Source: Oscillospiraceae bacterium (GTDB taxonomy: Bacteria > Bacillota > Clostridia > Oscillospirales > Oscillospiraceae). Taken from it: 61,561 nt of DNA. Below the pieces are notes generated by a model. The model had not been told where the DNA came from, ran no database searches, and worked only from the letters and a program-made list of their open reading frames with translations. Within the stretch, counting starts at the first letter, position 1; each line of letters starts with the position of its first letter. The stretch covers positions 1 to 61,561 of the forward strand of contig JAFTVM010000040.1 in assembly GCA_017465745.1 (NCBI GenBank). The letters run 5' to 3'. Both the position numbers and the translations under genes were made by a program. Positions 10,315-49,949 of this stretch are shown piece after piece.

Positions 10315-10324
10315 ATACCCTGGT

Positions 10325-10392: not shown

Positions 10393-10418
10393 TACGCACA
10401 TCATTTTGGAGAACTCCC

Positions 10419-11169: not shown

Positions 11170-11202
11170 ACCCCCGGTACCAAGGTACCGGGGGTTGTTT
11201 TA
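11170..11202 (+). terminator. terminator of the DUF1624 gene
   Basis: Perfect 12-base stem ACCCCCGGTACC (11170-11181) with GGTACCGGGGGT (11184-11195), followed by TGTTTTAT. Confidence 0.9.
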
Positions 11203-11205
11203 TGC

Positions 11206-11234
11206 AAAAACCGGCCCGCTTCCGCGGGCCGGTT
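11206..11234 (-). terminator. terminator of the ribose operon
   Basis: Stem AACCGGCCCGC (11209-11219) with GCGGGCCGGTT (11224-11234). On the minus strand it is followed by five T. Confidence 0.85.
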
Positions 11235-11252
11235 CTGCTTTGGGGAAATGAT

Positions 11253-12140: not shown

Positions 12141-12153
12141 GGGTTTCTCCTTT

Positions 12154-28958: not shown

Positions 28959-29063
28959 ATGAGCAACAATTCCAACAACCTCAACATCCCCCAGGCACGT
29001 CAGGGCATGGAGCAGTTCAAGATGCAGGCTGCCCAGGACCTTGGTGTCCTTTTTACCTATTAA
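28959..29063 (+). pseudogene. alpha/beta-type small acid-soluble spore protein, cut by element insertion
   Basis: The first about 30 codons read MSNNSNNLNIPQARQGMEQF and continue KMQAAQDLGV, the conserved N-terminal half of alpha/beta-type SASPs, which coat and protect spore DNA. The normal protein has about 60-70 residues and a conserved GxxGGxMVKxM half. Here the frame runs into LFTY and a stop at 29061, inside the 3' end of the serine recombinase gene. AAGGAGAG precedes the ATG. The rest of the gene should lie at the far junction of the element, outside the window. Other intact SASP genes may compensate. Confidence 0.85.
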
Positions 29064-29065
29064 AC
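29035..29065. other. left attachment junction of the integrated element
   Basis: The SASP reading frame stops matching its family after the codons for DLGV (about 29041-29049), and the recombinase stop codon is at 29060-29062. The crossover core must lie around here. The exact dinucleotide needs the right junction. Confidence 0.6.
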
Positions 29066-32510: not shown

Positions 32511-33908
32511 TTACAGAGGGATATTTTCATCAAAAAGTTCTCTTGGCGGCAGTTCCGGACTGTCTTTCAAGTACTTGACCAGGGTGGCGTATTCATCGCC
32601 GGTCAGATCGTTCTTTGCCCGTGTCATTTCACCCTTTGCCATCTCCACAGCACCCATCTGGTACATGGAGAAAATAAGCCAGTAATATGCTCTCATATTT
32701 CCGGGTGTCAGTTCTAGGGCATGGGTGGCGTATACCTGAAGGCAGGGATAGTCCTTTTCCGCAGCCAGCACTGCAAGCAACTCATTGACAAGGCCCACAT
32801 AGCGAAGGCTGTAACTGTTGACCAAGTTGATGATCCACGGCTCATCGCAGGCGTTCTCAAAGATATGGCCCTTATAGAGCATATACGCCTGTTTCAGCAG
32901 TTCCTCTTTATGTACGGCATCCAGCGGTTTCTGGGCAGCTTCGTACAGCTTATCGAACTGCTGGAGGTCTGTCATGATCCGCAGCTCCGGGTTGATGCGG
33001 TAGCCGTTGGGCGTGGATTCTATCAGCTGATAATCAGAGACCAGCGAAAACGCTTGGCGGAACCGGTAAATGAAGCCACGAATATTACTGCCGATGGCAT
33101 CCGGATCATAAGTATCATCCGGCCACAGGGCTTCCGCAATCTGTATCGGAGGATGTGCCGCTTTGCGGTGTAGCATGAGGTAGGTAATGACACGAGCAGC
33201 TTTCGGAGACTTGAAATCCTGCTCCCGGAGTACACCTTTGGATGTGATGATTTCCATATTTCCGAAAAAGTTAATGATAATATCCTTTTCGGTTTGGATG
33301 GAATCCGGTGCCATAATCAGTTTAACGCTGTCCAGCAGTTTCTTCTCATTCACTGTGGTAAGCACCACAAAAGCCAGCATTTGGAGCATACTGGTACGTT
33401 CAATGTATCTCTTAGGATTGCGAACTACCAGAAATGCCACAGGACGTGGCTTGACAGGGACACCGATCACAGACCTTACATCCAGCCGTTTGTAAATATC
33501 ATATTCACCGGGCCACTCATCCTTAATGGCTCCTGCGTCCGGGACAACAATAGCGTGATTATCCCGCATGGCCGCAACCCAACGGTATAAATACTCAGAT
33601 GATTCAAATTCGTGCATCGCTTCTATCGTTTTATCATTCGGATGTGTGTTGTACCACCAAAACGGCGTCCAGATATTCAGATCCAGATCCACTTCCAGAA
33701 TGCCTGCCCAGTCGCCCTGGTAGAATTCACAGGCAGCTTTCAGTGTCATCTTGGCAATTTCCTCGGGGTCATCACTGGTATGCAAGCGTGCTTCCAGGCT
33801 CGTCAGAGTACGTTCCACCTCCATTGCGTACCTTGTGTATTCCCGTTCTTCATCGTGTAAAGTCTGTTCACCTGAGGAGGTCTTTTTCTTAAACAGCTTA
33901 TCAAACAT
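32511..33908 (-). CDS. GAF plus BTAD (SARP-like) transcriptional regulator
   Basis: A 465-residue protein. The first part (about 45-200) looks like a GAF sensory domain (EEIAKMTLKAACEFYQGDWAGILEVD). The middle (about 220-315) is an OmpR/SARP-type winged helix (FKSPKAARVITYLMLHRKAAHP, then IGSNIRGFIYRFRQAF). The rest is a TPR-like bacterial transcriptional activation domain. It is the last gene downstream of the surface operon and probably regulates it, by inference. I start at the ATG at 33908 with GGGAG upstream; a terminator hairpin lies just before. Confidence 0.8.
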   Translation of the reverse strand: MFDKLFKKKTSSGEQTLHDEEREYTRYAMEVERTLTSLEARLHTSDDPEEIAKMTLKAACEFYQGDWAGILEVDLDLNIWTPFWWYNTHPNDKTIEAMHEFESSEYLYRWVAAMRDNHAIVVPDAGAIKDEWPGEYDIYKRLDVRSVIGVPVKPRPVAFLVVRNPKRYIERTSMLQMLAFVVLTTVNEKKLLDSVKLIMAPDSIQTEKDIIINFFGNMEIITSKGVLREQDFKSPKAARVITYLMLHRKAAHPPIQIAEALWPDDTYDPDAIGSNIRGFIYRFRQAFSLVSDYQLIESTPNGYRINPELRIMTDLQQFDKLYEAAQKPLDAVHKEELLKQAYMLYKGHIFENACDEPWIINLVNSYSLRYVGLVNELLAVLAAEKDYPCLQVYATHALELTPGNMRAYYWLIFSMYQMGAVEMAKGEMTRAKNDLTGDEYATLVKYLKDSPELPPRELFDENIPL

Positions 33909-33927
33909 TTCCGCTTTCTCCCTTACT

Positions 33928-33971
33928 GAAAAAACATAGAGCGGCAGTAAGATACACACTTACCGCCGCTC
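33928..33971 (-). terminator. terminator between surface operon and regulator
   Basis: Stem GAGCGGCAGTAAG (33939-33951) with CTTACCGCCGCTC (33959-33971, one mismatch), followed on the minus strand by TATG and a T-run. It ends only about 20 bases before the regulator start, leaving no room for a promoter between, so the regulator is probably expressed by read-through. Confidence 0.7.
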
Positions 33972-34024
33972 CAATATGCATTGAGAACATAAACAGCGGC
34001 ATCTTATGGAAAGAGGATGCGTAT

Positions 34025-35542
34025 TTATGCGTTTTCGGTTTCGTCCTTTTTTCTGCGCTTCCAGAAAATCAGGAAGAACAGAACGATTACGGACAGGATC
34101 AGGATACCGACCCACAGGAAGATATTGCTTGTATCGCCGGTTTCGGGAATCCATTGGCTTGCGCCGCAGCGGACGCACTTACCGTCCTCGAACTTATGGC
34201 CCAGCTTGCTTCCCTTGTCGGTTCGGGTATCGGTCTTGCCGCAGCCGTGGTCACACTTGGCGGTTTCGGTGCCGTCCTTTTTGCAGGTGGCATTGTTGTC
34301 GGATTCGTACTTGGTGAAGCTATGTCCAGTAGCGGGTTCCGCCTTGGTGTAGGTGTGGTTCTTATCCCGCTTACAGGTGAATGTTCTGACACCATCCTTA
34401 TCACAGGTGGGCTTGGTGGTTACGGTGCCCTCGTCCCAGTCGTGGCCCAAAGGTTCGCCTACGGGCACGGTTTTTTCAGTGGTATGCTCCTCACAGTTAT
34501 CACACTGGACATAGTAAGTAGCAGCTTCGGTGCAGGTTGCATCGGTGGCCTTTACATCGGATGCCTTATTGGTAAAGCTGTGACCACCGGGAGCAGTAGA
34601 GGTCGTGTCGGTCCAGCCAACCATGATGGGAGAAAGACCTGTCACATAGAACTCAATGTGTCCATCCCGTTCCGTAACTGCAGGATACTCCACGTCACCA
34701 GCCTTCTTGCCGAAGGCATCCTTGCTGAACATATGCACCACATAGTAATCATGCTTCACAGGATCTGTGCCAGCGGGAACAGGCAGGGAGACCAGCAGCT
34801 TACCATTCTCCGGGAAATGTTCTTCGTCTGCTTTGGTCCAGGTTTTTCCGCCATCGGTGCTGTACATCAGCACCACATCATACAGTGCTGTATTGCTGTC
34901 ATCCAAATCACAGTTCAGCTCATTGATGGCAACTCTCAATGTCGTTTCCACCTTGGTAACGGTATCATACCCTGCATCCTTCAAGTCATCCGTAACATCT
35001 TCATCCCCGAAGTTCTCGATTTCAACCTTGGTCTGAGTTTCATAGTTCTCTGTCAACACATAGTAATGACTACCATCTGTGGTGAAAGACACCTTACCAC
35101 CAGCAAGTTCGCTCGTCAGAGTCTTATCCGCACCGGAGGCGGTAACAGAACTGACGGACAGCTTTGTGCCAGAAACGGCAATACTCACTTTTGCACCGTT
35201 GGCATTGATGCGGTTGCCCTGGGCATCCCGGAAGTGGATGTCAAAAGCGGCAACAGCATCCCCATCCACGCAGCCGTCCGCCCAGGTCAGAGCTTCGCCC
35301 TCCATGGGGATCACCACAAGGGTCACAGCATCGGTAGGGGTGTTGGTTACGGAAACTGTACCATCCGGGGTGGTGACGGATGCGGAACCGTTTTCTATGG
35401 GAGCAGTGTATTCTCCTTCAATGCTACATTCCGTTTTTGCGTACACACCGATTTCTACGGGATCATCTTCTGCCGCAAAAGCGGTTACGGTGCAGGACAG
35501 GAGCAGCACCGCAGCCAGCGATAAGGAAATCAATTTTCTCAT
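34025..35542 (-). CDS. cell-wall-anchored surface protein with IPETG sortase motif
   Basis: A 505-residue secreted protein: signal peptide (cleaved after about residue 23, AFA), beta-rich domains (about 28-320) and Cys-rich repeats GHSFTNKASDVKATDATCTEA and CDHGCGKTDTR (about 345-465). The C-terminal sorting signal is IPETGD, a hydrophobic helix and the RRKK-rich tail. It should be linked to peptidoglycan by a sortase, none of which is in the window. The Cys repeats resemble those in the giant protein of the same operon. It is the last structural gene and its start shares one base with the stop of the gene before. Confidence 0.85.
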   Translation of the reverse strand: MRKLISLSLAAVLLLSCTVTAFAAEDDPVEIGVYAKTECSIEGEYTAPIENGSASVTTPDGTVSVTNTPTDAVTLVVIPMEGEALTWADGCVDGDAVAAFDIHFRDAQGNRINANGAKVSIAVSGTKLSVSSVTASGADKTLTSELAGGKVSFTTDGSHYYVLTENYETQTKVEIENFGDEDVTDDLKDAGYDTVTKVETTLRVAINELNCDLDDSNTALYDVVLMYSTDGGKTWTKADEEHFPENGKLLVSLPVPAGTDPVKHDYYVVHMFSKDAFGKKAGDVEYPAVTERDGHIEFYVTGLSPIMVGWTDTTSTAPGGHSFTNKASDVKATDATCTEAATYYVQCDNCEEHTTEKTVPVGEPLGHDWDEGTVTTKPTCDKDGVRTFTCKRDKNHTYTKAEPATGHSFTKYESDNNATCKKDGTETAKCDHGCGKTDTRTDKGSKLGHKFEDGKCVRCGASQWIPETGDTSNIFLWVGILILSVIVLFFLIFWKRRKKDETENA

Positions 35543-36075
35543 TAGGCAGCACCTCCTATTTGGGTGTTCAGGACAACAGAACCTGCGCTTAAATATGTGT
35601 CAGGCTCGTAGCCCATGATCTTTAGTTTGATGGGAGTGCCAGGGGCAAGTTCCTTGTTCAGTTCCACATACTGCACATACTCACCGGGCTTTATTAGGCC
35701 GGTCTCTCCAAGAACATTACCATTTTCATCGTAGATCCGCAGCTTCGTCCAGGTTTCATTTTCAGCCGGGTTGGTGAAGTACACCAGCGCCTGTCTGCCA
35801 TTCATCGTCACATTGCCGCAGACTGCGAAGCGGTACGCCATGCCCTCCTGGAAGGGGGCGGAGTAGCCTAACCCCTCCGGCACCTCCGGGGTTCCTTCAA
35901 CGGCAGAAGCATCAAAGGTAGGGGGGACAAATTCGCCACGCTCTGCCTCCTTGGGAGCGAGCAGCGCCACGATCATTATGATAACGGCAACGGCAAATAC
36001 TACCGCCAGCACGGTCACCTGCTTGTTTTGTTTGGGTTTATTCTGTTGGGGTGTTTTCTTTTTTGCTTTGCCCAT
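35542..36075 (-). CDS. membrane-anchored accessory protein of the surface operon (1)
   Basis: A 177-residue protein with a Lys-rich cytoplasmic start, one membrane helix (about residues 20-41, VTVLAVVFAVAVIIMIVALL) and an extracellular beta-rich domain. ALVYFTNPAENETWTKLRIY followed by GLIKPGEYVQYVEL resembles SLLYANP...LISPGNGVDTLTL in the 171-residue protein at 37924, so the two are probably diverged paralogues. No known family is recognised. They could hold the secreted subunits at the membrane during assembly, by inference. Confidence 0.7.
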   Translation of the reverse strand: MGKAKKKTPQQNKPKQNKQVTVLAVVFAVAVIIMIVALLAPKEAERGEFVPPTFDASAVEGTPEVPEGLGYSAPFQEGMAYRFAVCGNVTMNGRQALVYFTNPAENETWTKLRIYDENGNVLGETGLIKPGEYVQYVELNKELAPGTPIKLKIMGYEPDTYLSAGSVVLNTQIGGAA

Positions 36076-36157
36076 GGTTACACCTCATTATTAGGAATCA
36101 GATCTCATATTGCGCCACTATCAGCCGATGGAGCAATATCAAAGCTGATTTCCGGGC

Positions 36158-36177
36158 GGGGGCTGTTGCCAGCCCCC
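36158..36177 (-). promoter_or_regulatory. intra-operon hairpin after the third small subunit gene
   Basis: GGGGGCTG (36158-36165) pairs with CAGCCCCC (36170-36177) without a T-run. It sits between the run of subunit genes and the downstream genes and may protect the upstream mRNA from decay, setting subunit excess. Confidence 0.5.
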
Positions 36178-36202
36178 AGCCGAAGATCTCTAAGATTGGT
36201 TA

Positions 36203-36733
36203 TTAGTTAGCCTTTGCGATGGTCACAGTGATGGTGCCCAGGGTATCCTTGTTTTCGGTGATAGCGGCACCGGTAATGCCGAACTCAGCAGTAGCAAAGG
36301 GGGCAGCATCGACCTCAGTGCCGACTGCGGTAGCAAGAGTCAGAACATTGTCATTTACGGTACCGCTGGACTCTGTGAAGGTTCCGACAACACCGGTAAC
36401 AGCAGGTGCGAAGCTCAGAGTAGCAGTCACAGCAGCATTGGAGTGGTTGGTGACGGTAACAGTGCCCTTGTTGGCAGACCATGCGCCTTCGCCATCTTCT
36501 GCGTACTTGTGTTCGCCGGGGAGCCATTCACCGGCTTCGCCCTCGGTGTAGGTGAACTCCATGCCTCCCCATGCCACATCAACGGAAATCTTCTCACCGG
36601 CTGCGCCAGCGGTCTTGAAGGTACCCTTAACATTGATGGTAGTATCGCCACCCTCGTTGGTTGCAGCAAAAGCGGTAACAGACAGGCTCATGACCATAAC
36701 CAGAGCCAGAATCAGAGAAAAAATCTTCTTCAT
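36203..36733 (-). CDS. secreted small surface subunit, paralogue 3
   Basis: A 176-residue secreted protein: signal peptide cleaved after Ala23 (AFA), mature acidic beta-rich domain. It carries the shared signature VAWGGMEFTYTEG...W...HKY...AWSAN...VTVTNHSN (about residues 52-100) found in all three paralogues and once in the giant protein. No sortase motif and no cysteine in the mature part. I do not recognise the family. The pattern of three abundant-looking, similar secreted subunits suggests a polymer-forming fibre protein. Confidence 0.75.
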   Translation of the reverse strand: MKKIFSLILALVMVMSLSVTAFAATNEGGDTTINVKGTFKTAGAAGEKISVDVAWGGMEFTYTEGEAGEWLPGEHKYAEDGEGAWSANKGTVTVTNHSNAAVTATLSFAPAVTGVVGTFTESSGTVNDNVLTLATAVGTEVDAAPFATAEFGITGAAITENKDTLGTITVTIAKAN

Positions 36734-36756
36734 AGTCAGTTCTTCCTTTCAGATAA

Positions 36757-37278
36757 TCAGTTCTGAGCGATGTTGATAACAACGGTACCGACCTGACCGG
36801 CATCTTCTGCGGTCATGGTGCCGCCCAGGGTCAGGGTGACAGAGCCGGAGGGAGCGTTCTCAACGGTGGTATCCACAGCAGAAGCCAGGGCGATCACACC
36901 TTCGTTGGAGAAAGTGCCGGTAACGGTTTCAACAGCCTTGTTGTAGGTGAAGGTTGCCTTGATGCCGACATTGGAGTGGTTGGTGACTTCGATTGCATTG
37001 TCGGATGCACTCCATGTGCCGTTGCCCTTTGCGCCGTAGGTATGGGTAGCGGGGTCCCATTCGCCATCAGCGCCATCGGTATACTGGAAAGTCATAGCGC
37101 CCCAGGAAATATCAACAGAAACCACATCATCAGCTGCAGCGCCTGCCTGGTAAGCAGCGGAGATATTGATGGTTGCGGCTTCGCCCTCACCGTTGCCGTT
37201 ATCTTCGGCGGCGAAAGCAGTGACGGACAGGCTCATGACCAGAGCCAGGGCCAGGATCAGGGAAAGAATCTTTTTCAT
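36757..37278 (-). CDS. secreted small surface subunit, paralogue 2
   Basis: A 173-residue secreted protein with signal peptide MKKILSLILALALVMSLSVT plus AFA, then a domain with ISWGAMTFQYTDGADGEWDP, HTYG, TWSAS and EVTNHSN. The signal peptide is almost identical in DNA and protein to that of paralogue 1, evidence of tandem duplication, while the mature parts have diverged to moderate similarity. It lies 30 bases after paralogue 1 and 23 bases before paralogue 3. Confidence 0.75.
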   Translation of the reverse strand: MKKILSLILALALVMSLSVTAFAAEDNGNGEGEAATINISAAYQAGAAADDVVSVDISWGAMTFQYTDGADGEWDPATHTYGAKGNGTWSASDNAIEVTNHSNVGIKATFTYNKAVETVTGTFSNEGVIALASAVDTTVENAPSGSVTLTLGGTMTAEDAGQVGTVVINIAQN

Positions 37279-37308
37279 ATTTCGTTTCTCCTTTCAGAAT
37301 TTCATAAA

Positions 37309-37833
37309 TTACTGCTTGGTGATCTTAACAGTGATGGTGCCGACCTTGGTGGAGGTCTTGACAGAATCAGCCAGAGTGCCGTCCAGGGTCAGAGTAGCGG
37401 TGTCCTTGTCGGCATTTGCATAGGTCAGGCCGTCGCCGGAGTCCAGCAGCAGCTCAGCCTTGTCGAAGGAGCCGGTGACGGTGTTGTAGGCAGTGTCAGC
37501 GGTGAATGCCAGCTCAGCCTTGACAGCGATATTGGAGTGATTGGTGACGGTGACAGTATTGCCGGTTGCAGTCCAAGCGGAATTGATGTTGGTGGTGTAC
37601 TCATGCTTGGTGGCATCCCACTGCTTGTTGCCGCTGACGGAATAAGTGAAGCTCATTGCGCCCCACTCAACGTTCACGGAGATCACATCAGGGGTGGAAA
37701 CGCCGTCAGAGTACATGGCGTTGACATCGATGCTGGTATCGTTTTTGCCGTCGTTGGTCTCCGCGGCGAAAGCGGTGACGGACAGGCTCATAACCAAAGC
37801 CAGAGCCAGGATCAGGGACAGGATCTTTTTCAT
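37309..37833 (-). CDS. secreted small surface subunit, paralogue 1
   Basis: A 174-residue secreted protein: signal peptide as in paralogue 2, then VEWGAMSFTYSVSGNKQWDA, HEYTT, AWTAT and VTVTNHSN, the shared signature. The mature domain is predicted all-beta and ends in IxVKITKQ-like strands, as in the other two. First of the three tandem genes, 90 bases after the membrane-anchored 171-residue protein. The ribosome binding site is strong (AAAGGAGAAATG). Confidence 0.75.
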   Translation of the reverse strand: MKKILSLILALALVMSLSVTAFAAETNDGKNDTSIDVNAMYSDGVSTPDVISVNVEWGAMSFTYSVSGNKQWDATKHEYTTNINSAWTATGNTVTVTNHSNIAVKAELAFTADTAYNTVTGSFDKAELLLDSGDGLTYANADKDTATLTLDGTLADSVKTSTKVGTITVKITKQ

Positions 37834-37923
37834 TGGTCATTTCTCCTTTGCGTTTTGTTTTGAAATTACAAATTATGTTCTTGCCTTACGGCAGTAAAAA
37901 GGGGGATTCCTCCCGGTGGTGGA

Positions 37924-38439
37924 TCATTCCACCACCGTCAGGGAGAGCTGGCCTTTGGTATCCACCATGGCCTTTTCGCCGGATTCCGGGTCATAGGCCC
38001 GGATGACCAGTTCCGCGTCATAGCCGCCGACGCCGAGCTTGCCTGCGGCGTATTCATCCAGAGTCAGGGTATCCACGCCGTTGCCGGGGCTGATCAGATC
38101 GGACTTGGCGACCACCAGATCGTCGATCATAATGAGGATCGCCACATCCTGATTGGATGAGCGGGGATTGGCATAAAGCAGGCTGACCGTTCCTTCGGAC
38201 AGGTCAACAGTTGCGTTGACATTGTAAGTAACGTTGATGGAGCCGCCGCCCTGGGGACTTTCCATCTTCTCGCTTTCGTCACCCTCCAGGGGCTTCTGAT
38301 TGGCTTCCGTTCCCTGGGGCGGGTAGTCCGGGGCGATGGGCTTGCCGCCATCCCGGAAGAACAGGGCCCACATGGTCACCGCCAGGCACAGCACGATGCC
38401 GGTGCAAAGGACCGGGACCAGCCATTTATTCTTGTTCAT
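37924..38439 (-). CDS. membrane-anchored accessory protein of the surface operon (2)
   Basis: A 171-residue protein with one N-terminal membrane helix (about residues 7-27), a Pro/Glu-rich linker (about 32-65) and an extracellular beta-rich domain. GTVSLLYANPRSSNQDVAIL and DLISPGNGVDTLTL echo the 177-residue protein at 35542. The linker may reach into the cell wall. Family not recognised. It lies 17 bases after the giant gene in the same operon. Confidence 0.7.
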   Translation of the reverse strand: MNKNKWLVPVLCTGIVLCLAVTMWALFFRDGGKPIAPDYPPQGTEANQKPLEGDESEKMESPQGGGSINVTYNVNATVDLSEGTVSLLYANPRSSNQDVAILIMIDDLVVAKSDLISPGNGVDTLTLDEYAAGKLGVGGYDAELVIRAYDPESGEKAMVDTKGQLSLTVVE

Positions 38440-38456
38440 GTTCTGTTCCTCCTTTC

Positions 38457-41400
38457 TTACTCTGCAAATTCAACGTCCCAGATGTAACAGTAATATAGGT
38501 ATACTGTACGATCGGAATAAGAAGGAAAATAAGAGCGCTGATTAAGCTTCCAAGACGTATCGTCTATATATCCTAGACGATATAAAATTTTACCATCATT
38601 TGTGGAATACGAATATACTGCCGCATACCTAACAGTTGCGTTGCCAGAACTGTTATTGCACACAAATTCATCGGTTCTTGCCCGGTAATACTCGGCTGTT
38701 GCTTCTTCTGGACTGGGGTATCTTGCGCCAACGGAAATTACCAGATTCCTTACCGTGTTGTCATTCCACTTATCCATTGTATATGTTGCTTTGTTCACGG
38801 TATCCCCGATCAGCACCATCTTACTGTCTGAGACCTCACCGACCGTAGTTTCATAAGCCTTGCCATTCTTGGCATAGAAGGTTACGCTGTCACCTGCCGC
38901 CCAGCCGGAGCTGCCCAGAGATACGGTGACGGTGCCGATCTGCTCGTCCACAAATCCGGATTTCCGGGGGCCGCCGCTGACGGTGAGGGTGGTGGTCACC
39001 GCTCTGCCCGGGGTCAAAGCCGCCTTTTCTACATCAAACTGGCCGGTGACTTCGCCCATGGTTCCGGCAAATGTGAAGCGCACAGGAACATTGGCAGCGC
39101 CGACATTTTTGACGGTGATCTGCGCCGCACCATCATCCGCCGTCCAGCTTCCGGTATAGGTGTGGGTTTCGGGGTCCCATTCACCGTCGGTGTAGGTAAA
39201 GCTCATTTCCGTCCAGGAGATGCTCACGTTTACGGTATTGCCGTTATGATATGTATCACTTTCGGTGTTGTAATTCACAACACAGCCCACAAACTTGGGG
39301 TAAGCATCCATACCAATGTTCTGATACCACACCAGGTCGCCCTGATCTGTGGAACCGTTCAACAGCCATGCAACCTCGCCGGAGGCAAACTGGTCAGCGG
39401 TCTTATAATCGCCGCAAGAGCCGGTGTTTTCGCTTTCTGCCAGATAGTAGCAGTTGGTCACAGCGTCAGCATTACTTGCTGTCAAGCAACCGTAAGTGGT
39501 AAAGCAGTTTGTCAGTGTGCTGTCTGCACACTCTCCGGCGATGCCGCCCGCCTGTGCATGGGTCGTGGTAACAGTGAGATTGCCTGCACTGTACACATTG
39601 GCAACGGTACACCGATGCAGCTCACCGGCAACGATACCAGCCCGGTAGCCGGTGCCATTCACAGGATCGCTGACCACGGCAACATCCACGACACCGAAAT
39701 TCGACAGGGTTGCGTCTTGTGCTCTGCCGAACAGGCCCGCTTCACGTCCGTCAGTCACGTGGATGCTCAGATTTTTGATTACATGGCACTGTCCGTCGAA
39801 GACACCCATATAAGGCACCTTTACATTCGGGCTGACGGATTCGTTCTGGGTGCCGATGGGAGTCCAGTTCCGGTTTTCCAGATCAATGTCGGCAGTTAAC
39901 ACGGCATTGCTGGTATTATTGCCGCCGTTGACAAGCTCTGCAAACCAGAAGAGCTTACCTCCATTGTCGATTACATAGTATCCGTCCGCGTTCTGCACAG
40001 CTTCTTCATACCCGCCGCAGGCACAGAAGCCATTGGTGTATTCATGCGGGATGACAACTGCTTCATTCACATTGGAATAAGCATATTCCCCCTGTGCCGA
40101 ACAGCCGGTCTTTGCAACCTGATAAACCGTTGCGCCGCCAAAGACAGGGCAGCCATCCGTTCCAATGGTCTGACCCCAGCCGTTGCCAAGGGCGTAAGCG
40201 ATCTCGCCGGAGGCGAAACGTTCCGCACTGACGCCTGCTTCACAGTTTGTAGTTGTGCCAGCCTCAGAGCTTGCCAGCGCAGAATAATCGGTATAGCAGT
40301 TTTCCAGTTTGCCGCCCGAATAGTCGCCGCTGATGCCGCCGAAACGATTGTTGTAACCGGCAAGGGTCATATTGCAGGTATAACAGTTTTTAACTGTGCC
40401 TTTGTTCATGCCCACGATACCGCCGACAACTCTGCTGGATGCTTTCACAGTAGAGTTGATCACAAAACAATCGCTGATGGTACTGTCCGCCAACAACTGA
40501 CCTGCAATACCGGCTGCACGATGGTCATAATCGTTATTATCAAAGGTAAGGTTCTCAACACCCAGGTTTTTCACTGTGCCGCCGGACTGAACGGTACCGA
40601 AAATACCTGCCGCCATCGCCGAAGCAGGTGCTGCAAACGTAACATTGCTGATAACATGACCCTGTCCGTCGAAGGTGCCTGTATAACCATCCGTGACACT
40701 CTCACCCATAGCCGTTACGCCAATCGGTGTCCAGGTATGGTTTGTCAGATCGATGTCATTCATCAGAACGGCATTTATGGACTTTTCGCCACCGTTGACC
40801 TGTTCGGCAAACCAGTAGAGCTGACTTGCATTGTAAATTTCGTAATAGCCATCGGCATTCTGCGATGCACGCTCATAGGCATTGCAGATACCGCCGGAAA
40901 GCAGGGTGTTGACACATCGGAAATCCTCGCCTATGTTATGTTCCTTCGTTTCTTCCGCATCATTGGAATAAGGAACACCGCCGCCGCAGCTACTGTGATA
41001 TACGGTTCCGCCTGTAAAGCCGGGATATGTGTCAGTGCCGATGGTCTGCTTCCAAATACCCTCTGCGGATTCGCCGTTCAGCAGCCAGGTTATTTCGCCG
41101 CTGGCAAAAGCCTCGGTGGTCTTGCCCTCCACTTTGGTGAGGGTGGCGCTGGCGTAGCTACCGCCGTTTACACCTACGGGGGCATAGCCGCAAACAGTGT
41201 TATCGTGGTAACAGTTGGTGATTGTGGCATTCGTAGTGGAATGGTTCAAGACATAACCTACCACACCACCTGCCTGCGACGAACCCTCAACGGTGCCAAC
41301 GCTGATGCAATTACTGATATTCGAGGTGTCTTGCATCGAGCCGGCAATACCGCCCACGCTGCTGTCAGCTTTAACAGAGCCGGTGTTGTAGCAGTTATTG

Positions 41401-44400
41401 ATCGTTCCGCCGGATGCACAGCCGCAAATACCGCCGGCATGAGTAGTGCTGTTGACCGTGCCGTAGTTCGTGCAATTTTCAACAAGACCTGCGATTATGC
41501 GTCCTATGATACCACCGACCTGGTTACCACCGACCACAATGCCGTAATTGCTACAATTACTGACGGTACCCTCATTCAAACCGGTAACGGAACCGGCTCT
41601 GCCGTCGGAATGGGTGGTATGGATATAAGTGTCCGCAATGGTCAGATCCCGGATGGTTCCGGCAGAATAACCGAACAGACCGGCATATCTGGCAGTGTCA
41701 CCGTAGTGATACAGGCCGCTGATGGTTTTTCCGTTGCCGTCAAAGGTTCCAGCAAAGCCCAGATTATCGGTATCGGAATTATAATGTCCAATGGGGGTCC
41801 ACTGGCGCAGACCGGAGGTGTCGCTGATCAGATTTCCGTCAGCATCCAGCACCTGAGAATTGATCACAATGTCATTCATCAAAATGGCACTGATGGTGGT
41901 TTCGCCGTTGTTGACCTGCTGCGCGAACCAGTACAGCTGACCGGCATTGGAGATTTCATATACCTCGCCATTGAGCACGGCAGGCTCATAGCAGCCGTTG
42001 GTGCAGAAGCCATTGCTGTCGAAGGCAACGGTTTCGTCGTGGTTGGTGGTGTCCACTTCGCCGTAGCTTGCGCCGCAATATTCACAATTTGCCTGCGTGG
42101 TGCAGGAGGTTGCGGTGCCGCCGGTGTGATCCTCGGTGACAGTGCCGCAGACAGTGCAGGTGTAGCTGTGGGTGCCATCGCCGTTATCGGTGTAGCCAGC
42201 TGCATCGGGGGTGTGACTACTCACTTCGCCGTAGCTTTCACCGCAGACGGTGCAGACTGCAAGTTCGGTGCAGGTTGCGGTGCCGCCGATGTGGCCAATA
42301 TCTTCATTGGTATTGCTGTAGGCGACTTCGCTCTTGCAGTTGGTCACCTGATACACGGTGCCGCCGGTGAAGTTGGGCGCTGCATCGCCGTCTTCGCCCA
42401 GAGTCTGCTTGAAGACGATGGTGCTTTGGTCGCCGTTTAAGAGGTACGCCACCTCACCGATCTCAAACTGCCCGGCAGTCTTGGCGGTGGTGCCGTCAAA
42501 GCTGTCGGTTTCGCTGTCTGCCAGATAGTAGCAGTCCTTCAGTGTGTGGCGATTGTCGCCCGCTATGCCGCCGTAATAGGCAGCACCGCCGGCAAAACCG
42601 GTGTTGTAGGCGTACTGTAGGATGTAATTGTTATAGCCCGTCACGCCGCCTGCATAGTCCATGGCGAATACTGTGCCGGTGTTGTAGGCGTACTGAACGA
42701 TGTAATTGTTCTCGCCCACCACGCCGCCTGCATATTTGCTGCCGTTGACGTTTCCGGTGTTGTAGACGGACTGCAGGGTGCCGCGGTTACATCCCGCCAC
42801 GCCGCCAACATACGAGCCGGCGTAAAAGTAGGAGTCGATGACACCCACATTCTCCACGGTGCCGCCGCTGCCGACATAACCAAACAGACCCACATAGTCT
42901 GCGCTTCTGCTGTTGAAGTACAGACCAGAGACGGTATGTTCGCTGCCGCGGAACTCGCCGGTGTAGGCATTGTCCTCGGTGCCGATGGGGGTCCAGACTC
43001 TGAAAGCAGAGCCGTCGCCGTTTAGCGCGCCGTCCGCAGTCAGCACGTTCTCGTTGACCACGATATCGGCGGTCAGCTCACCGTTGATTGCGGTACTGCC
43101 GGAGTTCACCTGCTGGGCAAACCAGTAGAGCTGGCCCGCATTGGTGATCTCGTAGTAGCCGTCGCTGTCGGAATCGGTGGCAGGCTCATAGCCGCCGCAG
43201 ACGGTGCATATGCCGTTTTCATACTGATGGCCGTCTTTTTTATAGGTGTTGGAATACTCCCTTTCATTCTTACAAGTGTCGAATCGATAGACCTCCGCGC
43301 CATACAGGACGGGATAAGGATCGGTGCCGATGGTCTGACCCCAGGGGTCGCCCAGCAGGTACGCTACCTCGCCGGAGGCGAAACGTTCCGCACTGACGCC
43401 TGCTTCACAGTTTGTAGTTGTGCCAGCCTCAGAGCTTGCCAGCGCAGAATAATCGGTATAGCAATTTTCCAGTTTGCCGCCCGAATAGTCGCCGCTGATG
43501 CCGCCGAAACGGTTGCTGTAACCGGCAAGGGTCACATTGCAGGTATAGCAGTTTTTGACTGTGCCCCTGTTCATGCCCACGATACCGCCGACAACTCTGC
43601 TGGATGCTTTCACAGTAGAGTTGATAACATAACAATCGCTGATGGTACTGCCCGCCAGCAGCTGACCTGCAATACCGCCTGCACGATGGTCATAATCGTT
43701 ATTATCAAAAGTAAGGTTCTCAACGCCCAGGTTTTTCACTGTGCCGCCGGATTGAACGGTACCGAAAATACCTGCAGCCATCGCCGAAGCAGGTGCTGCA
43801 AAGGTAATATTGCTGATGACATGACCCTGTCCATCAAAGGTGCCTGTATAACCATCCGTGACACCCTCGCCCATAGCCGTTACGCCAATCGGTGTCCAGA
43901 TATGGTTTGTCAGATCGATATCATTCATCAGAACAGCATTTATGGACTTTTCGCCGGAGTTTACCTGTGCCGCGAACCAATAGAGCTGACCTGCATTTGC
44001 GATCTCGTAAACGCCGTCGGCGTTGGAATCGGCGGCAGGCTCATAGCAGCCGTTGGGGCAGAAGCCATTGCTTCCGAAGGCAACGGTGCTGTCGTGGTTG
44101 GTGGTGTCCACTTCGCCATAGCTTGCGCCGCAGTGTTCACACTTTGCCTGCGTTGTGCAGGTTGCGGTGCCGCCGGTGTGATCCTCGGCAACGGTCTCTT
44201 TGCAGTCGGTGCAGGTGTAGCTGTGGGTGCCGTCGCCGTTGTCGGTGTAATCGGTATTTTCTGCGGGGGAATGACCGCCCAGCTCGCCGTAGCTTGCGCC
44301 GCAATGTTTGCACTTTGCCTGTTCGGTGCAGGTGGCGGTGCCGCCGGAGTGTTCCTCGGTGGCGGCGGTGCCGCAGACGGTGCAGGTGACGCTGTGGGTA

Positions 44401-47102
44401 CCGTTGCCATTGTCGGTGGGCTTGGTGGTGCTGCCGCTGTGGTCGCAGACTTCGCCGCAGGCGGTGCAGATGCCGTCTGTGTAATTATGGTCCAGGTCGC
44501 TCTGGGTGTTGGCGTAGGCCTCTGCGCCTTCCGTGCAGGTCACGCCGACCCGGTACACAGTGCCGCCGGTGAAGTTGGGGGAGGCATCGGTACCGATGTC
44601 CTGTCCGAAGGGACTGCCCAGCAGATAGGCCACCTCGCCGCTCTTAAACTGATCGGCGGTCTTGGCTTCCGCCTGACCGGCCACATCCCCGCCCTTGATG
44701 CCGCCGTCTGCGGCGGTGTCGAGGTAGTAGCAGCTTGCCACGGTGCCCATGTTGTCGCCCACCACGCCGCCGACATAGCTGCCGGTACCGCTGACGGTGC
44801 CGGTGTTGTAGCAGCCGGTCATAGTGCCGTGGCTGTTGCCCGCCACGCCGCCGACTAAGTCATAGCCGCTGACGGCGCCGGTATTGTAGCAGCCGGTCAT
44901 AGTGCCGTGGCTGTTGCCCACCACGCCGCCGACATAGTTGGTGCCGCTGACGGTGCCGACGTTGGAGCAGCCGGTCACAGTGCCGTGGCTGTTGCCCGCC
45001 ACGCCGCCTACATGGTTGCCGGTGCCGCTGACGGTGCCGGCGTTGGAGCAGCCGGTCACAGTGCCGTCGCTGTTGCCCGCCACGCCGCCTACATGGTTGC
45101 CGGTGCCGCTGACGGTGCCGGCGTTGGAGCAATTCTCCACGGTGCCACCGAAGACGCGGCCCGCCACACCGCCGACAGCGTAAGTGGCGCAGATGTAGGA
45201 GTCCGTGATGCGCACGTTCTTCACGGTGCTGCCGCTTTCAAGACAGCCGAACAGGCCCACATAATATGCAGTGCTGTCATTGAAATACAGACCGCTGATT
45301 GTATGCCCGCCGCCGTCGAAGGTGCCGAGGTACGCATAGGTATCATTGCCGATGGGGGTCCATGCCCGTGCACCGGTGGTTTCGGCGGTCATGGTGCCCT
45401 CGTTGACCACGATATTGGCGGTCAGCTCACCATTGATTGCGTTGTCGCCGCCGTTGACTGCTGCCGCAAAGGCGTACAGCTCGTCGGCGGTGGATATTTC
45501 GTAATAGTCGTCGCGGTCGGCGTCCCGCAGGGTAACGGATGCACCCGTGTCAATGGTGACGGTGATGTCGTCATAATAGGTCAGGAAGATGCCTGTATTC
45601 TGCCAGCTTTCAAGACTCTGCAAGTCATTGCAGTACTGAATCTCAAAGTTATCGCAGGAATCAAACCAGGAAATGTTTGCGGAGAGATCCAGGGTAGCTG
45701 TATTGGCTGCGGTGTCAATGGTCCAGTAGCCGCTGCTCAAGATGCCTCCGGCGCCGTCAGCGTACTGTACATAATTGTCATTACTTGCATTGGCAAAATT
45801 GGTGCCGGTGGCGGTAACGATGATGGACTGGGTATCAGGGGTGATGGTCACATTGCCTTCGGTGTAGGTCACGCCGTCCACGGTGATGCTCACGCCGGTA
45901 ATCTGGGCGGGGGTGGTGTCCTCTTCGCCGCCGGTACCGTCGTCATAGGTCAGGTAGATACCGGTCTCCACGCGGGTTCCATCGTCAGTAACATAGACAA
46001 TGGGGTATTCAGAAAGACCTTCAAGCCATTCTGGAGGAAGGTAGATATCGATCGTACCGTCATCACTTAAGGAGCCGGCTGATTTCATATACACAGGCGT
46101 ATAGGGAATATCGAAATAATACTCCTCGGACAAATTTTCAAGGTTTGTTCCATTTACAATAAGAAAAATGGAATTTTCAGAAGTGACGGTAATATGACCG
46201 CTGTTTATCGTAGTATCACCGTCTAAATGAATGGAAACGCCGGTGATCTGCGCAACATCGGCATAGGTCACACCCTCGTCCGTTCCGCCGGCGCAGGCGG
46301 CATAGCCAAAGCCGCAGACATCGCAGTATTCGTTGAAGCTCTCAGCGGTGCATTTTTCCACACAGTAGCAGACAGGAGCAGGCTCGGAGGATTCCTCAGA
46401 TGCCGCACATTCCGCGCACTCGTAGTGGCAGTCGTGAGCCTCCACAGCTTGCGCGTAGCCGCAGGCATCGTCATGGCCGCCGTCTGCATGGGAGCAGAGG
46501 AGCTTGTAGCAGCTATCGGCGCTGTCCACCTTTACCGCATGGGTATGGGTGCAGGGAGTACCCTCGGTAGCTGGGGTATAACCGCAGGTATCATCGCAGG
46601 CGGTATGTCCGCAGGGCTGACCCTCAACCGCTGCCACAAAACCGCAGTCCCCGGAGTGGTCACATTCGGGGTCAGTCTCGGCATTGGCGCAGGGGTTACC
46701 TGCCACGGCTTCTACATAGCCGCAGCTCTCGTTATGGACATGGCCGCAGGGAACTTCAGCGGTTCCCTCGCTGTAGCCGCAGTCGCCATGGACATGGTGG
46801 CAATCCAGCTCCAGGCGTACGCACCCGTTATCTACGGTGCATTCATGGTTGCAGCCATCAGCACATTCTTCACCGCAGGTATGTAAGCACTCCAAAATAG
46901 CATAGCAATCCTCGCTATGCTCATGGGTGCAGGCACTTCCTGCGCTGCCCTCGCGGTAACCGCACTCGGCTGTATGCTCGGTGTGATGCTCACACAGATT
47001 GTCCGTAGTGGCAGCAAAGGCCGGTAACGGCACGCTGGACAACACCATATTCAGCGCAAGCAAAGCACTGATTCCTTTCTTAATCCATTTCATCTTTTCC
47101 AT
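38457..47102 (-). CDS. giant secreted surface protein with Cys/His-rich head and GLUG-type modules
   Basis: 2,881 residues. Signal peptide (about 1-31, PAFA). Cys/His-rich repeats of the C-x-H-x-H / CGY type (about 35-277). Two Ig-like segments starting ITGVSI (about 287-510). Six beta-helix GLUG-type modules (about 524-847, 1024-1261, 1304-1567, 1704-2034, 2074-2330, 2367-2604), each opening with YxIxxAxxLYxFA. CxxC repeats (CEHCGASYGE) fall between some modules. A domain like the small subunits follows (about 2614-2734), then a tail without a sortase motif. I start at the ATG at 47102, eight bases after AAGGAGG. It is the first gene of the surface operon and probably the tip or adhesin of a fibre. 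Ligand unknown. Confidence 0.85.
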   Translation of the reverse strand: MEKMKWIKKGISALLALNMVLSSVPLPAFAATTDNLCEHHTEHTAECGYREGSAGSACTHEHSEDCYAILECLHTCGEECADGCNHECTVDNGCVRLELDCHHVHGDCGYSEGTAEVPCGHVHNESCGYVEAVAGNPCANAETDPECDHSGDCGFVAAVEGQPCGHTACDDTCGYTPATEGTPCTHTHAVKVDSADSCYKLLCSHADGGHDDACGYAQAVEAHDCHYECAECAASEESSEPAPVCYCVEKCTAESFNEYCDVCGFGYAACAGGTDEGVTYADVAQITGVSIHLDGDTTINSGHITVTSENSIFLIVNGTNLENLSEEYYFDIPYTPVYMKSAGSLSDDGTIDIYLPPEWLEGLSEYPIVYVTDDGTRVETGIYLTYDDGTGGEEDTTPAQITGVSITVDGVTYTEGNVTITPDTQSIIVTATGTNFANASNDNYVQYADGAGGILSSGYWTIDTAANTATLDLSANISWFDSCDNFEIQYCNDLQSLESWQNTGIFLTYYDDITVTIDTGASVTLRDADRDDYYEISTADELYAFAAAVNGGDNAINGELTANIVVNEGTMTAETTGARAWTPIGNDTYAYLGTFDGGGHTISGLYFNDSTAYYVGLFGCLESGSTVKNVRITDSYICATYAVGGVAGRVFGGTVENCSNAGTVSGTGNHVGGVAGNSDGTVTGCSNAGTVSGTGNHVGGVAGNSHGTVTGCSNVGTVSGTNYVGGVVGNSHGTMTGCYNTGAVSGYDLVGGVAGNSHGTMTGCYNTGTVSGTGSYVGGVVGDNMGTVASCYYLDTAADGGIKGGDVAGQAEAKTADQFKSGEVAYLLGSPFGQDIGTDASPNFTGGTVYRVGVTCTEGAEAYANTQSDLDHNYTDGICTACGEVCDHSGSTTKPTDNGNGTHSVTCTVCGTAATEEHSGGTATCTEQAKCKHCGASYGELGGHSPAENTDYTDNGDGTHSYTCTDCKETVAEDHTGGTATCTTQAKCEHCGASYGEVDTTNHDSTVAFGSNGFCPNGCYEPAADSNADGVYEIANAGQLYWFAAQVNSGEKSINAVLMNDIDLTNHIWTPIGVTAMGEGVTDGYTGTFDGQGHVISNITFAAPASAMAAGIFGTVQSGGTVKNLGVENLTFDNNDYDHRAGGIAGQLLAGSTISDCYVINSTVKASSRVVGGIVGMNRGTVKNCYTCNVTLAGYSNRFGGISGDYSGGKLENCYTDYSALASSEAGTTTNCEAGVSAERFASGEVAYLLGDPWGQTIGTDPYPVLYGAEVYRFDTCKNEREYSNTYKKDGHQYENGICTVCGGYEPATDSDSDGYYEITNAGQLYWFAQQVNSGSTAINGELTADIVVNENVLTADGALNGDGSAFRVWTPIGTEDNAYTGEFRGSEHTVSGLYFNSRSADYVGLFGYVGSGGTVENVGVIDSYFYAGSYVGGVAGCNRGTLQSVYNTGNVNGSKYAGGVVGENNYIVQYAYNTGTVFAMDYAGGVTGYNNYILQYAYNTGFAGGAAYYGGIAGDNRHTLKDCYYLADSETDSFDGTTAKTAGQFEIGEVAYLLNGDQSTIVFKQTLGEDGDAAPNFTGGTVYQVTNCKSEVAYSNTNEDIGHIGGTATCTELAVCTVCGESYGEVSSHTPDAAGYTDNGDGTHSYTCTVCGTVTEDHTGGTATSCTTQANCEYCGASYGEVDTTNHDETVAFDSNGFCTNGCYEPAVLNGEVYEISNAGQLYWFAQQVNNGETTISAILMNDIVINSQVLDADGNLISDTSGLRQWTPIGHYNSDTDNLGFAGTFDGNGKTISGLYHYGDTARYAGLFGYSAGTIRDLTIADTYIHTTHSDGRAGSVTGLNEGTVSNCSNYGIVVGGNQVGGIIGRIIAGLVENCTNYGTVNSTTHAGGICGCASGGTINNCYNTGSVKADSSVGGIAGSMQDTSNISNCISVGTVEGSSQAGGVVGYVLNHSTTNATITNCYHDNTVCGYAPVGVNGGSYASATLTKVEGKTTEAFASGEITWLLNGESAEGIWKQTIGTDTYPGFTGGTVYHSSCGGGVPYSNDAEETKEHNIGEDFRCVNTLLSGGICNAYERASQNADGYYEIYNASQLYWFAEQVNGGEKSINAVLMNDIDLTNHTWTPIGVTAMGESVTDGYTGTFDGQGHVISNVTFAAPASAMAAGIFGTVQSGGTVKNLGVENLTFDNNDYDHRAAGIAGQLLADSTISDCFVINSTVKASSRVVGGIVGMNKGTVKNCYTCNMTLAGYNNRFGGISGDYSGGKLENCYTDYSALASSEAGTTTNCEAGVSAERFASGEIAYALGNGWGQTIGTDGCPVFGGATVYQVAKTGCSAQGEYAYSNVNEAVVIPHEYTNGFCACGGYEEAVQNADGYYVIDNGGKLFWFAELVNGGNNTSNAVLTADIDLENRNWTPIGTQNESVSPNVKVPYMGVFDGQCHVIKNLSIHVTDGREAGLFGRAQDATLSNFGVVDVAVVSDPVNGTGYRAGIVAGELHRCTVANVYSAGNLTVTTTHAQAGGIAGECADSTLTNCFTTYGCLTASNADAVTNCYYLAESENTGSCGDYKTADQFASGEVAWLLNGSTDQGDLVWYQNIGMDAYPKFVGCVVNYNTESDTYHNGNTVNVSISWTEMSFTYTDGEWDPETHTYTGSWTADDGAAQITVKNVGAANVPVRFTFAGTMGEVTGQFDVEKAALTPGRAVTTTLTVSGGPRKSGFVDEQIGTVTVSLGSSGWAAGDSVTFYAKNGKAYETTVGEVSDSKMVLIGDTVNKATYTMDKWNDNTVRNLVISVGARYPSPEEATAEYYRARTDEFVCNNSSGNATVRYAAVYSYSTNDGKILYRLGYIDDTSWKLNQRSYFPSYSDRTVYLYYCYIWDVEFAE
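38900..39260 (-). other. subunit-like domain within the giant protein
   Basis: Encodes VSISWTEMSFTYTDGEWDP, then HTYTG, SWTAD and ITVKNVGAANV, the same order of W-x-x-M-x-F-x-Y, W, H-x-Y and W positions as the three small secreted proteins. Confidence 0.75.
40203..40790. repeat. 588-base near-identical direct repeat, copy 1
   Basis: Coding repeat inside the giant gene, nearly identical to 43368-43955 and of the same length. It covers the second half of one GLUG module (protein segments SAERFASGE through NDIDLTNHTW). Confidence 0.85.
43368..43955. repeat. 588-base near-identical direct repeat, copy 2
   Basis: Partner of 40203-40790, 3,165 bases apart (an exact multiple of three). Recombination between the copies would delete 1,055 residues in frame. 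Confidence 0.85.
44750..45160. repeat. tandem 66-69-base coding repeats (GLUG motifs)
   Basis: About six tandem units. Each encodes about 22-23 residues with GGVAGNS-GTVTGCSN-GTVSGT, and neighbouring units are almost identical in DNA. This is the most repetitive part of GLUG module 1. Confidence 0.85.
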
Positions 47103-47141
47103 ACGCATTTCCTCCTTGGGGAGATATGAGAAAAGGGACAT

Positions 47142-49236: not shown

Positions 49237-49949
49237 TCCCGGAAGAAAGACACAAACTGACGGTTGATCTCGTTATAACGCAGACGGCTGATGGGAACGG
49301 TGACACCGGATTTCATCAGAAACTCATATTGATTGATACGCTTGGTTTGGGCAAGGTTGACTATGTATGCCCGGTGGCAAAGAAGGAAACTCGCCTTGGG
49401 AAGCATTGCTTCCACCTCGCTGAATTTCAGTTTCGTTTCCACCGTTTCATCGGTCAGAACGAACCGGGTACCACGGTCAAATGCTTCCACATATTGAATA
49501 TCTGCAAAAGAAGTCCTGTACTGCCCCTTATCGGTTGGCAGCAGGATTTCTTTTTTTGCCAATCTTTCGCGGCAATACAGCAATGCTTCCTTCAGTTCCT
49601 CTTTGTCCAGAGGTTTCACAAGGTATCCGGATGCCTCCACATGATAACCCTGGCGGCACAGCTCCTGGCTGATGGAGATGAAGATGATCATGGTGCTGTC
49701 GCCCTGGTCACGCAGAGACTTGGCAAGGGCCATACCGTCCATTTCGTCCATCAGAACATCCAGCAGGATGAGGTTATATTTTTTGCCACTGCGCAGATCA
49801 TCAAGGAGGGATTTACCATCCGCATAGCTGTCAATGCTATGGGAGATCTTTTCATTGCACAGAATACACTTTGCCATGTCTGCGATTTGAACACGATCCT
49901 TTTCCATGTCGTCCACGACAGCGATCTTCAGTTCCGGATGTGCAAGCAT
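49233..49949 (-). CDS. LytTR-family response regulator
   Basis: A 238-residue response regulator: receiver domain (about residues 7-128) with acidic DD at 13-14 and the phosphoacceptor Asp64 in LILLDVLMDEMDG, then a LytTR DNA-binding domain (about 138-235; HRAYIVNLAQTKRINQYEF). It converges with the kinase gene and overlaps it by 4 bases, unlike the usual same-strand pair. Own promoter at 49994-50022. AAGGGGG precedes the ATG at 49949. The target is inferred to be the surface operon. Confidence 0.9.
   Translation of the reverse strand: MLAHPELKIAVVDDMEKDRVQIADMAKCILCNEKISHSIDSYADGKSLLDDLRSGKKYNLILLDVLMDEMDGMALAKSLRDQGDSTMIIFISISQELCRQGYHVEASGYLVKPLDKEELKEALLYCRERLAKKEILLPTDKGQYRTSFADIQYVEAFDRGTRFVLTDETVETKLKFSEVEAMLPKASFLLCHRAYIVNLAQTKRINQYEFLMKSGVTVPISRLRYNEINRQFVSFFRD

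Follow-up and report, generated by a model that had tools for sequence, protein, structure and literature searches.

Seven genes for secreted and membrane proteins lie together in an Oscillospiraceae genome, and the question is whether they encode a cell-surface appendage and, if so, of which kind. The window analyzed here, 61,561 nucleotides long, is one complete contig (G000:C61) of a 2.73-Mb draft genome of 122 contigs. Between positions 34025 and 47102, all in one direction, are the genes for a giant protein, two membrane proteins (MEMA and MEMB), three secreted subunits (SUB1, SUB2, and SUB3), and a wall-anchored protein (ANCH), as seen in Table 1; these seven genes of the original prediction were confirmed where it had placed them. 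We give an even chance to the reading that the locus is a module for a donor-strand-type surface fiber that is not polymerized by sortase. Comparison with relatives shows a recurrent gene order that keeps small SUB proteins together with large proteins bearing a SUB domain, two homologous membrane proteins, and a wall-anchored protein; we infer the fiber, its polymerization, and the chemistry of that step. No description of the module was found in the excerpts of the open-licence PMC literature that were retrieved.

The locus and its carrier element

The module genes are on the minus strand and, from the GAF/BTAD-like regulator to the giant, are separated by intergenic gaps of -1 to 127 bases. 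For the giant, the start at 47102 (2,881 residues) was preferred, with a GGAGG ending 8 nucleotides upstream; the start at 47141 (2,894 residues) is without a preceding GGAGG. In a hydropathy scan, the signal-peptide segment was the only hydrophobic one in SUB1-3 and the giant. MEMA and MEMB have a transmembrane segment close to the N-terminus, with an additional weaker peak within the outer domain of MEMA, and ANCH has a C-terminal one behind IPETG. The GAF and BTAD matches of the regulator fall just below the Pfam cut-offs (20.2 vs 22.4 and 20.5 vs 22.1 bits); the receiver, LytTR, and GHKL domains of the kinase/regulator pair are above theirs. This pair had been predicted at the start of the locus. 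Both genes are present, but they lie outside the predicted interval, and the kinase is on the plus strand, facing the LytTR gene.

Table 1. Features of the window with their positions, strand, and basis of assignment
Feature	Positions	Strand	Basis
Front part of split SASP gene, Pfam positions 1-26	28974-29051	+ (stretch 28959-29063)	
Large serine recombinase of carrier element	29060-30841	-	
GAF/BTAD-like regulator (weak domain matches)	32511-33959	-	Pfam
ANCH, secreted, wall-sorting signal; proposed base	34025-35542	-	sequence, homologue alignment, hydropathy
ANCH IPETG, transmembrane segment, and basic tail	34028-34150	-	sequence, hydropathy scan
ANCH strand near mature N-terminus, SUB-motif-like (p 0.04)	35432-35452	-	motif score
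MEMB, membrane protein homologous to MEMA	35542-36075	-	hhalign, hydropathy
SUB3, secreted subunit	36203-36733	-	pairwise identity, hydropathy
SUB3 N-terminal strand motif	36617-36637	-	motif
SUB2, secreted subunit; AlphaFold2-folded	36757-37278	-	identity, model
SUB2 N-terminal strand motif	37150-37170	-	motif
SUB1, secreted subunit	37309-37833	-	pairwise identity, hydropathy
SUB1 N-terminal strand motif (proposed donor strand)	37711-37731	-	motif
MEMA, N-terminal transmembrane segment and outer domain	37924-38439	-	hhalign, hydropathy
Giant, 2,881 aa: signal peptide, GLUG repeats, SUB domain near C-terminus; proposed tip/cargo	38457-47102	-	Pfam, alignment
SUB domain within giant, residues 2628-2742 (2,894-aa numbering), with about 150 residues beyond it	38916-39260	-	alignment
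GHKL histidine kinase, divergent from giant	47341-49236	+	Pfam
LytTR response regulator, convergent with kinase	49233-49949	-	Pfam
MobA/VirD2-type relaxase	52144-53550		

The module sits among the genes of an element, which from 29 kb on also include a sigma-70 region-4 protein, an AbiEi/AbiEii pair, DUF3849, a SNF2-like helicase, and DUF6017. The G+C content falls from about 0.58-0.62 in the first 27 kb to 0.48-0.50 at 28-34 kb and is 0.50-0.62 across the module. Next to the recombinase gene lies the front part of a small acid-soluble spore protein (SASP) gene, and the remainder (Pfam positions 19-59) is on contig C58 (G000:C58:1759-1881). These two pieces, which overlap by about eight codons, are the only SASP matches in the genome, and the element has split what is apparently the sole SASP gene of the genome. 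Among nine genus-mates, the gene is split in G044 as it is here, and G060 shows a similar pair. A single piece covering 49-59 positions is present in five; G019 gives two partial matches and G035 none. Other elements interrupt sporulation genes, and by analogy excision of this one might restore the spore gene.

The original prediction suggested that the module spreads between gut bacteria, and this is borne out in part. The same element with the module is indeed present in G044, of the same genus. Its proteins are 66-98% identical to those of the window, except for the GAF/BTAD regulator at 41%, and the aligned pieces of element DNA are 77-94% identical, with the giant rearranged. The regulator gene (32511-33959 against L039:2913-4250) stands at 41% and the kinase and LytTR regulator at 97% identity, which points to different histories. 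Other relatives, however, carry the module without a recombinase match in the stretch retrieved. One of them is L043, which also has the kinase/regulator pair and, over 20 kb, nothing that matches the recombinase of the window; its flanking genes resemble chromosomal housekeeping genes, as judged by eye only. Going by these gene neighborhoods, the module is not tied to the element.

The SUB domain and its neighbors in relatives

SUB3 and SUB1 are 48% and 46% identical to SUB2, and the four SUB-domain matches that the genome yields at E 1e-6 or better are confined to this locus (SUB1-3 and the giant). Relatives were found in records of Subdoligranulum, Oscillospiraceae, Candidatus Enterenecus, and Lachnospiraceae, with the domain present in 8 of 10 loci. 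Counting the window's own genome each time, the domain occurs in 19 of 400 genomes of the family, 3 of 391 of the class, and 1 of 398 of the phylum. These counts exclude a first whole-genome search made with an alignment that included the signal peptide; its matches, in 53 of 99 genomes, fell largely on the leader. In an alignment of 19 members, 13 columns are invariant, including three W, one H, and an NHSN block. Megablast of the whole locus against a plasmid collection gave no match. By tblastn with SUB2, a phage collection gave two unannotated fecal contigs at 33-36% identity. Viral contigs gave 151 pattern stretches, and tblastn showed none of them to be a relative.

Type IV prepilins carry a GFTLxE-type site; SUB1-3 have a Sec-type leader ending AFA-A and no pilin Pfam match. 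They also show no sorting signal, no LPXTG-type match, and no C-terminal transmembrane segment. SUB1-3 and the 19 alignment members had no Pfam or NCBIfam match above cut-off, including none to the camelysin/TasA Pfam family, which we take to be the marker for TasA/CalY subunits. Against PDB sequences, the sole chain at E up to 1 stood at 0.037, which is chance level. Four further candidates were set aside: ExtJ and Asr as names for SUB or MEM proteins (chance-level matches that fell on the signal peptide), a fimbrial-usher NCBIfam model (E 0.009 in 1 of 19 members, taken as chance), and GspH (E 0.054 in 1 of 19, chance level). Two observations stand apart. A Subdoligranulum MAG encodes a SUB-family secreted protein (L028:8648-9970, plus strand) with a ubiquitin domain at residues 27-99, between the leader and the strand plus SUB domain, that matches single-ubiquitin PDB chains at E of about 1e-26. 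Directly behind the SUB genes of L040 is an ORF (10310-10552, plus strand) that by eye resembles a type IV pilin N-terminus.

The SUB domain in the giant had been missed in the original prediction and is new here; it is 39% identical to SUB2 over 117 residues (E 5e-14 for that single comparison). Among relatives, the domain either makes up nearly the whole mature protein (about 170-250 residues) or lies on the C-terminal side of proteins of 270-3,036 residues, where it mostly ends within 16 residues of the C-terminus. The exceptions are two L028 proteins, with 194-199 residues after the domain, and the giant and its G044 homologue, with 137-152; two L044 subunits have a tail of 85-91 residues. 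A Pfam scan of the fronts of 13 large proteins from other loci found GLUG repeats, which the window's giant also has, in L083 and L092 and just under cut-off in L043. It also found a CBM26 starch-binding module in L043, YDG and MBG in L029, InlB-type repeats in L045 and L047, purple acid phosphatase/metallophosphatase in L031 and L085, LamG, cadherin-like, and M26_N domains in L083, and ALK/LTK glycine-rich and Listeria-Bacteroides repeats in L096. The large protein of L094 and two of L032 had no Pfam match in front. Since the giant and these large proteins share the SUB domain and differ in their fronts, exchangeable tips or cargo sharing one dock on one fiber are suggested. The common dock is well supported by comparative anatomy. 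The tip role proposed for the giant thus gained evidence from its SUB domain and from the large proteins with varied fronts, the fiber they would cap being putative.

Two other groups of large proteins were seen. L047 (1-8924) holds a module with two large SUB proteins, MEMB, and ANCH; further along, a second giant begins that over 240 residues is 87% identical to that of the window. In the window's own genome, G000:C113:32000-51999 (L050) encodes another group of large secreted proteins without the SUB domain, one of which has GLUG-type repeats and 32% identity to the giant over 698 residues.

The order large protein, MEMA, SUB, MEMB, ANCH recurs wholly or partly in relatives. Across 37 distinct loci (38 rows of the gene-order table, L040 and L041 being near-copies in one genome), MEMA is present in 24, MEMB in 21, and ANCH in 8, with absences not firm at the many loci that stop at a contig end; L036 and L037, which have no SUB domain, and L048-L050 were left out of the count. 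ANCH directly follows MEMB in 8 of the 8 loci that have it, and a large SUB protein stands directly ahead of MEMA in 13. Of the 17 loci with all three, 15 have the SUB genes flanked by MEMA and MEMB, and in the other two, Lachnospiraceae L032 and L033, the SUB genes come first. Several loci have two or three tandem SUB genes, and there the small SUB proteins outnumber the large. Minimal loci have one MEMA and one SUB (L087, L088, and L090), and six, with no obvious cut by a contig end, have SUB genes but no MEMA or MEMB nearby (L089, L092, L093, L095, L098, and L099).

MEMA matched in 17 of the 19 genomes with SUB and in 19 of the 381 others (Fisher 4e-18, not corrected for kinship), with MEMA (36 genomes) and SUB (19) counted in what, by their handles, are apparently the same 400 family genomes. 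Each of the 15 genomes whose MEMA match is below 1e-20 also has SUB. In G590, G742, G755, and G735, MEMA and SUB are not neighbors. The recurrent order in relatives marks this as a real module, and comparative anatomy gives good support to a coherent one that is kept together. Scattered genes in homologous elements would have spoken against this part of the original prediction; the order is kept in most relatives and, together with the co-occurrence of SUB and MEMA, bears the coherent surface module out.

The N-terminal strand, the predicted fold, and the membrane and wall proteins

Most small SUB proteins carry the motif x-[IV]-x-V-x-[AG]-x-[YF] immediately behind the signal peptide. One pattern was applied to all proteins in a 36-residue segment that lies somewhat downstream of the intended place and fails to cover at least one motif (L040 9650). 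In this count, the motif was found in 27 of 39 small SUB proteins (5.6 expected by shuffling; 12 lack it) and in 5 of 23 large proteins (3.2 expected, near chance), giving Fisher 5e-4 for small against large, where the small class includes one large-protein fragment (L041), the large class includes the 440-residue SUB protein of L028 with its own strand, two short fragments are excluded, and six proteins of 263-399 residues (two with the motif) stand outside the test. The large proteins of Lachnospiraceae have a similar strand directly ahead of the SUB domain, which may simply be the first strand of the domain there.

A like stretch was found in ANCH. The best strand match lies 5-13 residues past the signal peptide in 8 of 8 ANCH proteins, with p from 0.0002 (L029) to 0.14, values that are modest, come from several homologues that are close kin, and derive from a score built on 30 strand windows chosen with the motif itself. 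With the same score, none of 18 MEMA and 21 MEMB proteins reached p 0.05. The leader-free motif score replaced an hhalign match of ANCH to SUB (96%), which covers the signal peptide and was discarded. The motif in small SUB proteins and the similar one in ANCH suggest donor-strand linkage in the fashion of TasA and TapA.

AlphaFold2 predicted a beta-sandwich core for SUB2 at residues 51-173 (block pLDDT 89-98), with residues 21-50, which include the motif, unplaced (pLDDT 50-63). High confidence for the core was thus reached with no donor strand present. In a fold of SUB1 joined to the SUB2 leader and strand, neither strand was placed and both were coil (pLDDT 52-55). This fold is a weak test, its hydrophobic leader being modeled as a helix and its second strand having no aligned rows. 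Foldseek with SUB2 gave no PDB match below E 0.001 among the best 50 of 394 and of 469 matches, and none below 0.001 in a viral library. The best among the matches listed were eukaryotic ASH and MSP domains (E 0.005-0.1), followed by weaker ones to Caf1 (0.15 and 0.055), Caf1M chaperone chains, CfaB (0.16), FimA (0.29), and the PapG pilin domain (0.59). The best 50 of either set included no chain of TasA, a sortase pilin, or a type IV pilin. We read the modeled core as an Ig-like domain of unsettled kinship.

The homologues of ANCH have their N-terminal region in common. Six of the eight aligned end in an LPXTG-type signal, that of L029 has choline-binding repeats instead, and the row of L084 stops short of such an end. 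One wall-binding device swapped for another supports the anchor role; comparative anatomy makes ANCH a well-supported wall anchor, and the role predicted for it gained evidence in this way. The L029 homologue (11196-12419, plus strand) also has the N-terminus that best fits the SUB strand motif. The genome has five sortase matches, all elsewhere and none on this contig.

By hhalign, MEMA is homologous to MEMB (probability 98%, E 7e-14), with only a weak pairwise BLAST match (E 0.007), and is unrelated to SUB (probability 6%). No convincing Pfam family was found for 21 MEMA and 20 MEMB proteins, and neither these nor the rest of the module had a Pfam match to a PapD-type chaperone or an usher. 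SUB, MEMA, MEMB, and ANCH had no WxL or WxL-interacting Pfam match. Two candidates for MEMA were rejected, PF23933 DUF7269 (1.9e-5 in only 1 of 21 members, chance level) and designed proteins (best E 1.6e-8 against the profile, yet no single stretch passes); the MEMB profile had no PDB match.

The MEMA domain also ends longer proteins with extra N-terminal regions (L032:12202-13617, GLUG-like by eye in that region; L094:9487-10386; L096:11019-11849; and L102:5212-6291). For the 19 genomes with MEMA only, 12 neighborhoods were fetched, and several have another small secreted protein adjoining MEMA, without a Pfam match (e.g. L103, L110, L112, L113, and L114). In L103 (1-11977), a GLUG giant and a pair of MEMA-like proteins accompany a small secreted protein that belongs to a different family, and the C-terminal region of this giant is 37.5% identical to the small protein over 72 residues (E 6e-6 against four sequences; not reported by phmmer). 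MEMA-like proteins beside other secreted families, as in L103, hint that the membrane half may serve a wider fiber superfamily.

Possible mechanisms and comparison with known systems

If the donor-strand reading is right, SUB proteins would polymerize head to tail on the outer side of the membrane, with the N-terminal strand of each one donated to the following subunit. At the far end, a large protein, which has the SUB domain and usually no such strand, would form the cap as an exchangeable tip or cargo. ANCH, with a strand and no recognized SUB domain, would end the chain at the cell, where a host sortase would fix it to the wall. MEMA and MEMB may hold the subunits, or hand them over, at the membrane, and the kinase/LytTR pair and the GAF/BTAD protein may regulate expression of the module. 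The five sortase matches elsewhere in the genome count in favor of this reading. Counting against it are the confident core with no donor strand, the unplaced strands of the joined chain, the 12 small SUB proteins without the motif and the 5 large ones with it, the strand ahead of the domain in Lachnospiraceae, the modest ANCH p-values, the six loci with SUB and no nearby MEM gene, and Foldseek matches short of significance. A bolder version, which we put forward tentatively and rate somewhat short of an even chance, is that this is a new class of Gram-positive fiber, in which Ig-like subunits are chained by donor strands, the base is anchored in the wall, and two dedicated membrane proteins serve assembly; it would be patchily distributed in Clostridia and moved among some of them by an element. 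Its swappable tips would include a GLUG adhesin, a starch-binding module, a phosphatase, and even a ubiquitin-bearing subunit.

The layout of the loci could also be that of a display scaffold, in which the SUB domain docks one to one on MEMA/MEMB or the wall, the large proteins are displayed, and the small SUB proteins are ligands or fillers. Small proteins consisting of the domain only and large ones ending in it, beside membrane and LPXTG-type proteins, resemble the arrangement of WxL clusters, and the loci with a single MEMA and a single SUB fit this. Yet tandem SUB genes, an excess of small SUB proteins over large, and a motif specific to the small ones suit a polymer better, and with no WxL or WxL-interacting Pfam match, we find the scaffold rather unlikely. 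SUB proteins might also form a fiber in some other way, for instance by stacking of whole domains or by cross-links, and the N-terminal stretch would then be no more than a linker. In favor of this, the model shows a complete core with no donor strand and leaves the N-terminal strand unplaced. A mere linker would fit poorly with a stretch that is conserved, with alternating residues, in most small SUB proteins and that has a counterpart in ANCH, and this route seems improbable to us.

The weak Foldseek matches to Caf1, FimA, CfaB, and the PapG pilin domain raise the further thought that the module belongs to a described fiber family (chaperone-usher-like, type V, or TasA-like) from which it has diverged too far for the searches to detect. 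All of these matches are at E above 0.001, however, the pilus folds rank below eukaryotic ASH and MSP domains, TasA, sortase-pilin, and type IV pilin chains are absent from the best 50 of 394 and 469 matches, and SUB has no Pfam or NCBIfam match above cut-off; such hidden membership would be very surprising. By the sequence tests made, the module belongs to none of the sortase, TasA, type IV, and WxL systems. The remark in the original prediction that the locus could not be matched to sortase pili, TasA/CalY fibers, or type IV pili stands: no known pilus family was matched by sequence, nor significantly by fold. The larger claim of a complete appendage system fared less evenly; the module and its tip, subunit, and wall-anchor roles gained evidence, but the sole structural test of strand exchange, the joined-chain fold, was negative.

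To our knowledge, few adhesive fibers have been described for the abundant gut Clostridia. A module of subunit, tip, base, and membrane proteins makes attachment and display by such bacteria testable, and its C-terminal docking domain would mark proteins presented at their surface. If strand linkage is true, donor-strand polymerization would have arisen again, in a wall-anchored Gram-positive form.

Several known systems share features with the module. Sortase-dependent pili likewise involve a wall-anchored protein with an LPXTG-type signal, but SUB1-3 are without a sorting signal or C-terminal transmembrane segment and the contig has no sortase match. WxL clusters of Firmicutes contain small domain-only proteins, large proteins with the same terminal domain, and membrane and LPXTG proteins, a layout like that of the module; the differences are that no WxL or WxL-interacting family is matched and that the transmembrane segment of MEMA and MEMB is N-terminal. 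Chaperone-usher pili have a tip protein with a subunit-like domain. Their subunits (Caf1, FimA, and CfaB) resemble SUB in its predicted Ig-like fold, the alternating N-terminal strand, and the weak Foldseek matches, whereas the module has no usher or PapD-type Pfam match and MEMA and MEMB are single-pass membrane proteins. The alternating residues of the chaperone-usher strand are described in the portion of PMC4654587 consulted. Archaeal threads (Saci_0406) are, according to an excerpt of PMC9715654, strand-complemented filaments outside the chaperone-usher pathway; they differ in being archaeal, and Saci_0406 is absent from the best 50 of the 394 and 469 Foldseek matches. TasA of Bacillus subtilis, as presented in the available part of PMC9674648, is a jelly roll matured by SipW and encoded in the tapA-sipW-tasA operon; its fibers are linked by N-terminal donor strands, and the N-terminus of TapA resembles the strand. 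In contrast, the SUB model is Ig-like, no TasA-type Pfam match was found, and the module genes include no SipW-like gene. The likeness lies in secreted subunits of a Gram-positive cell and in an anchor protein, ANCH, whose N-terminus may resemble the SUB strand as that of TapA does the strand of TasA.
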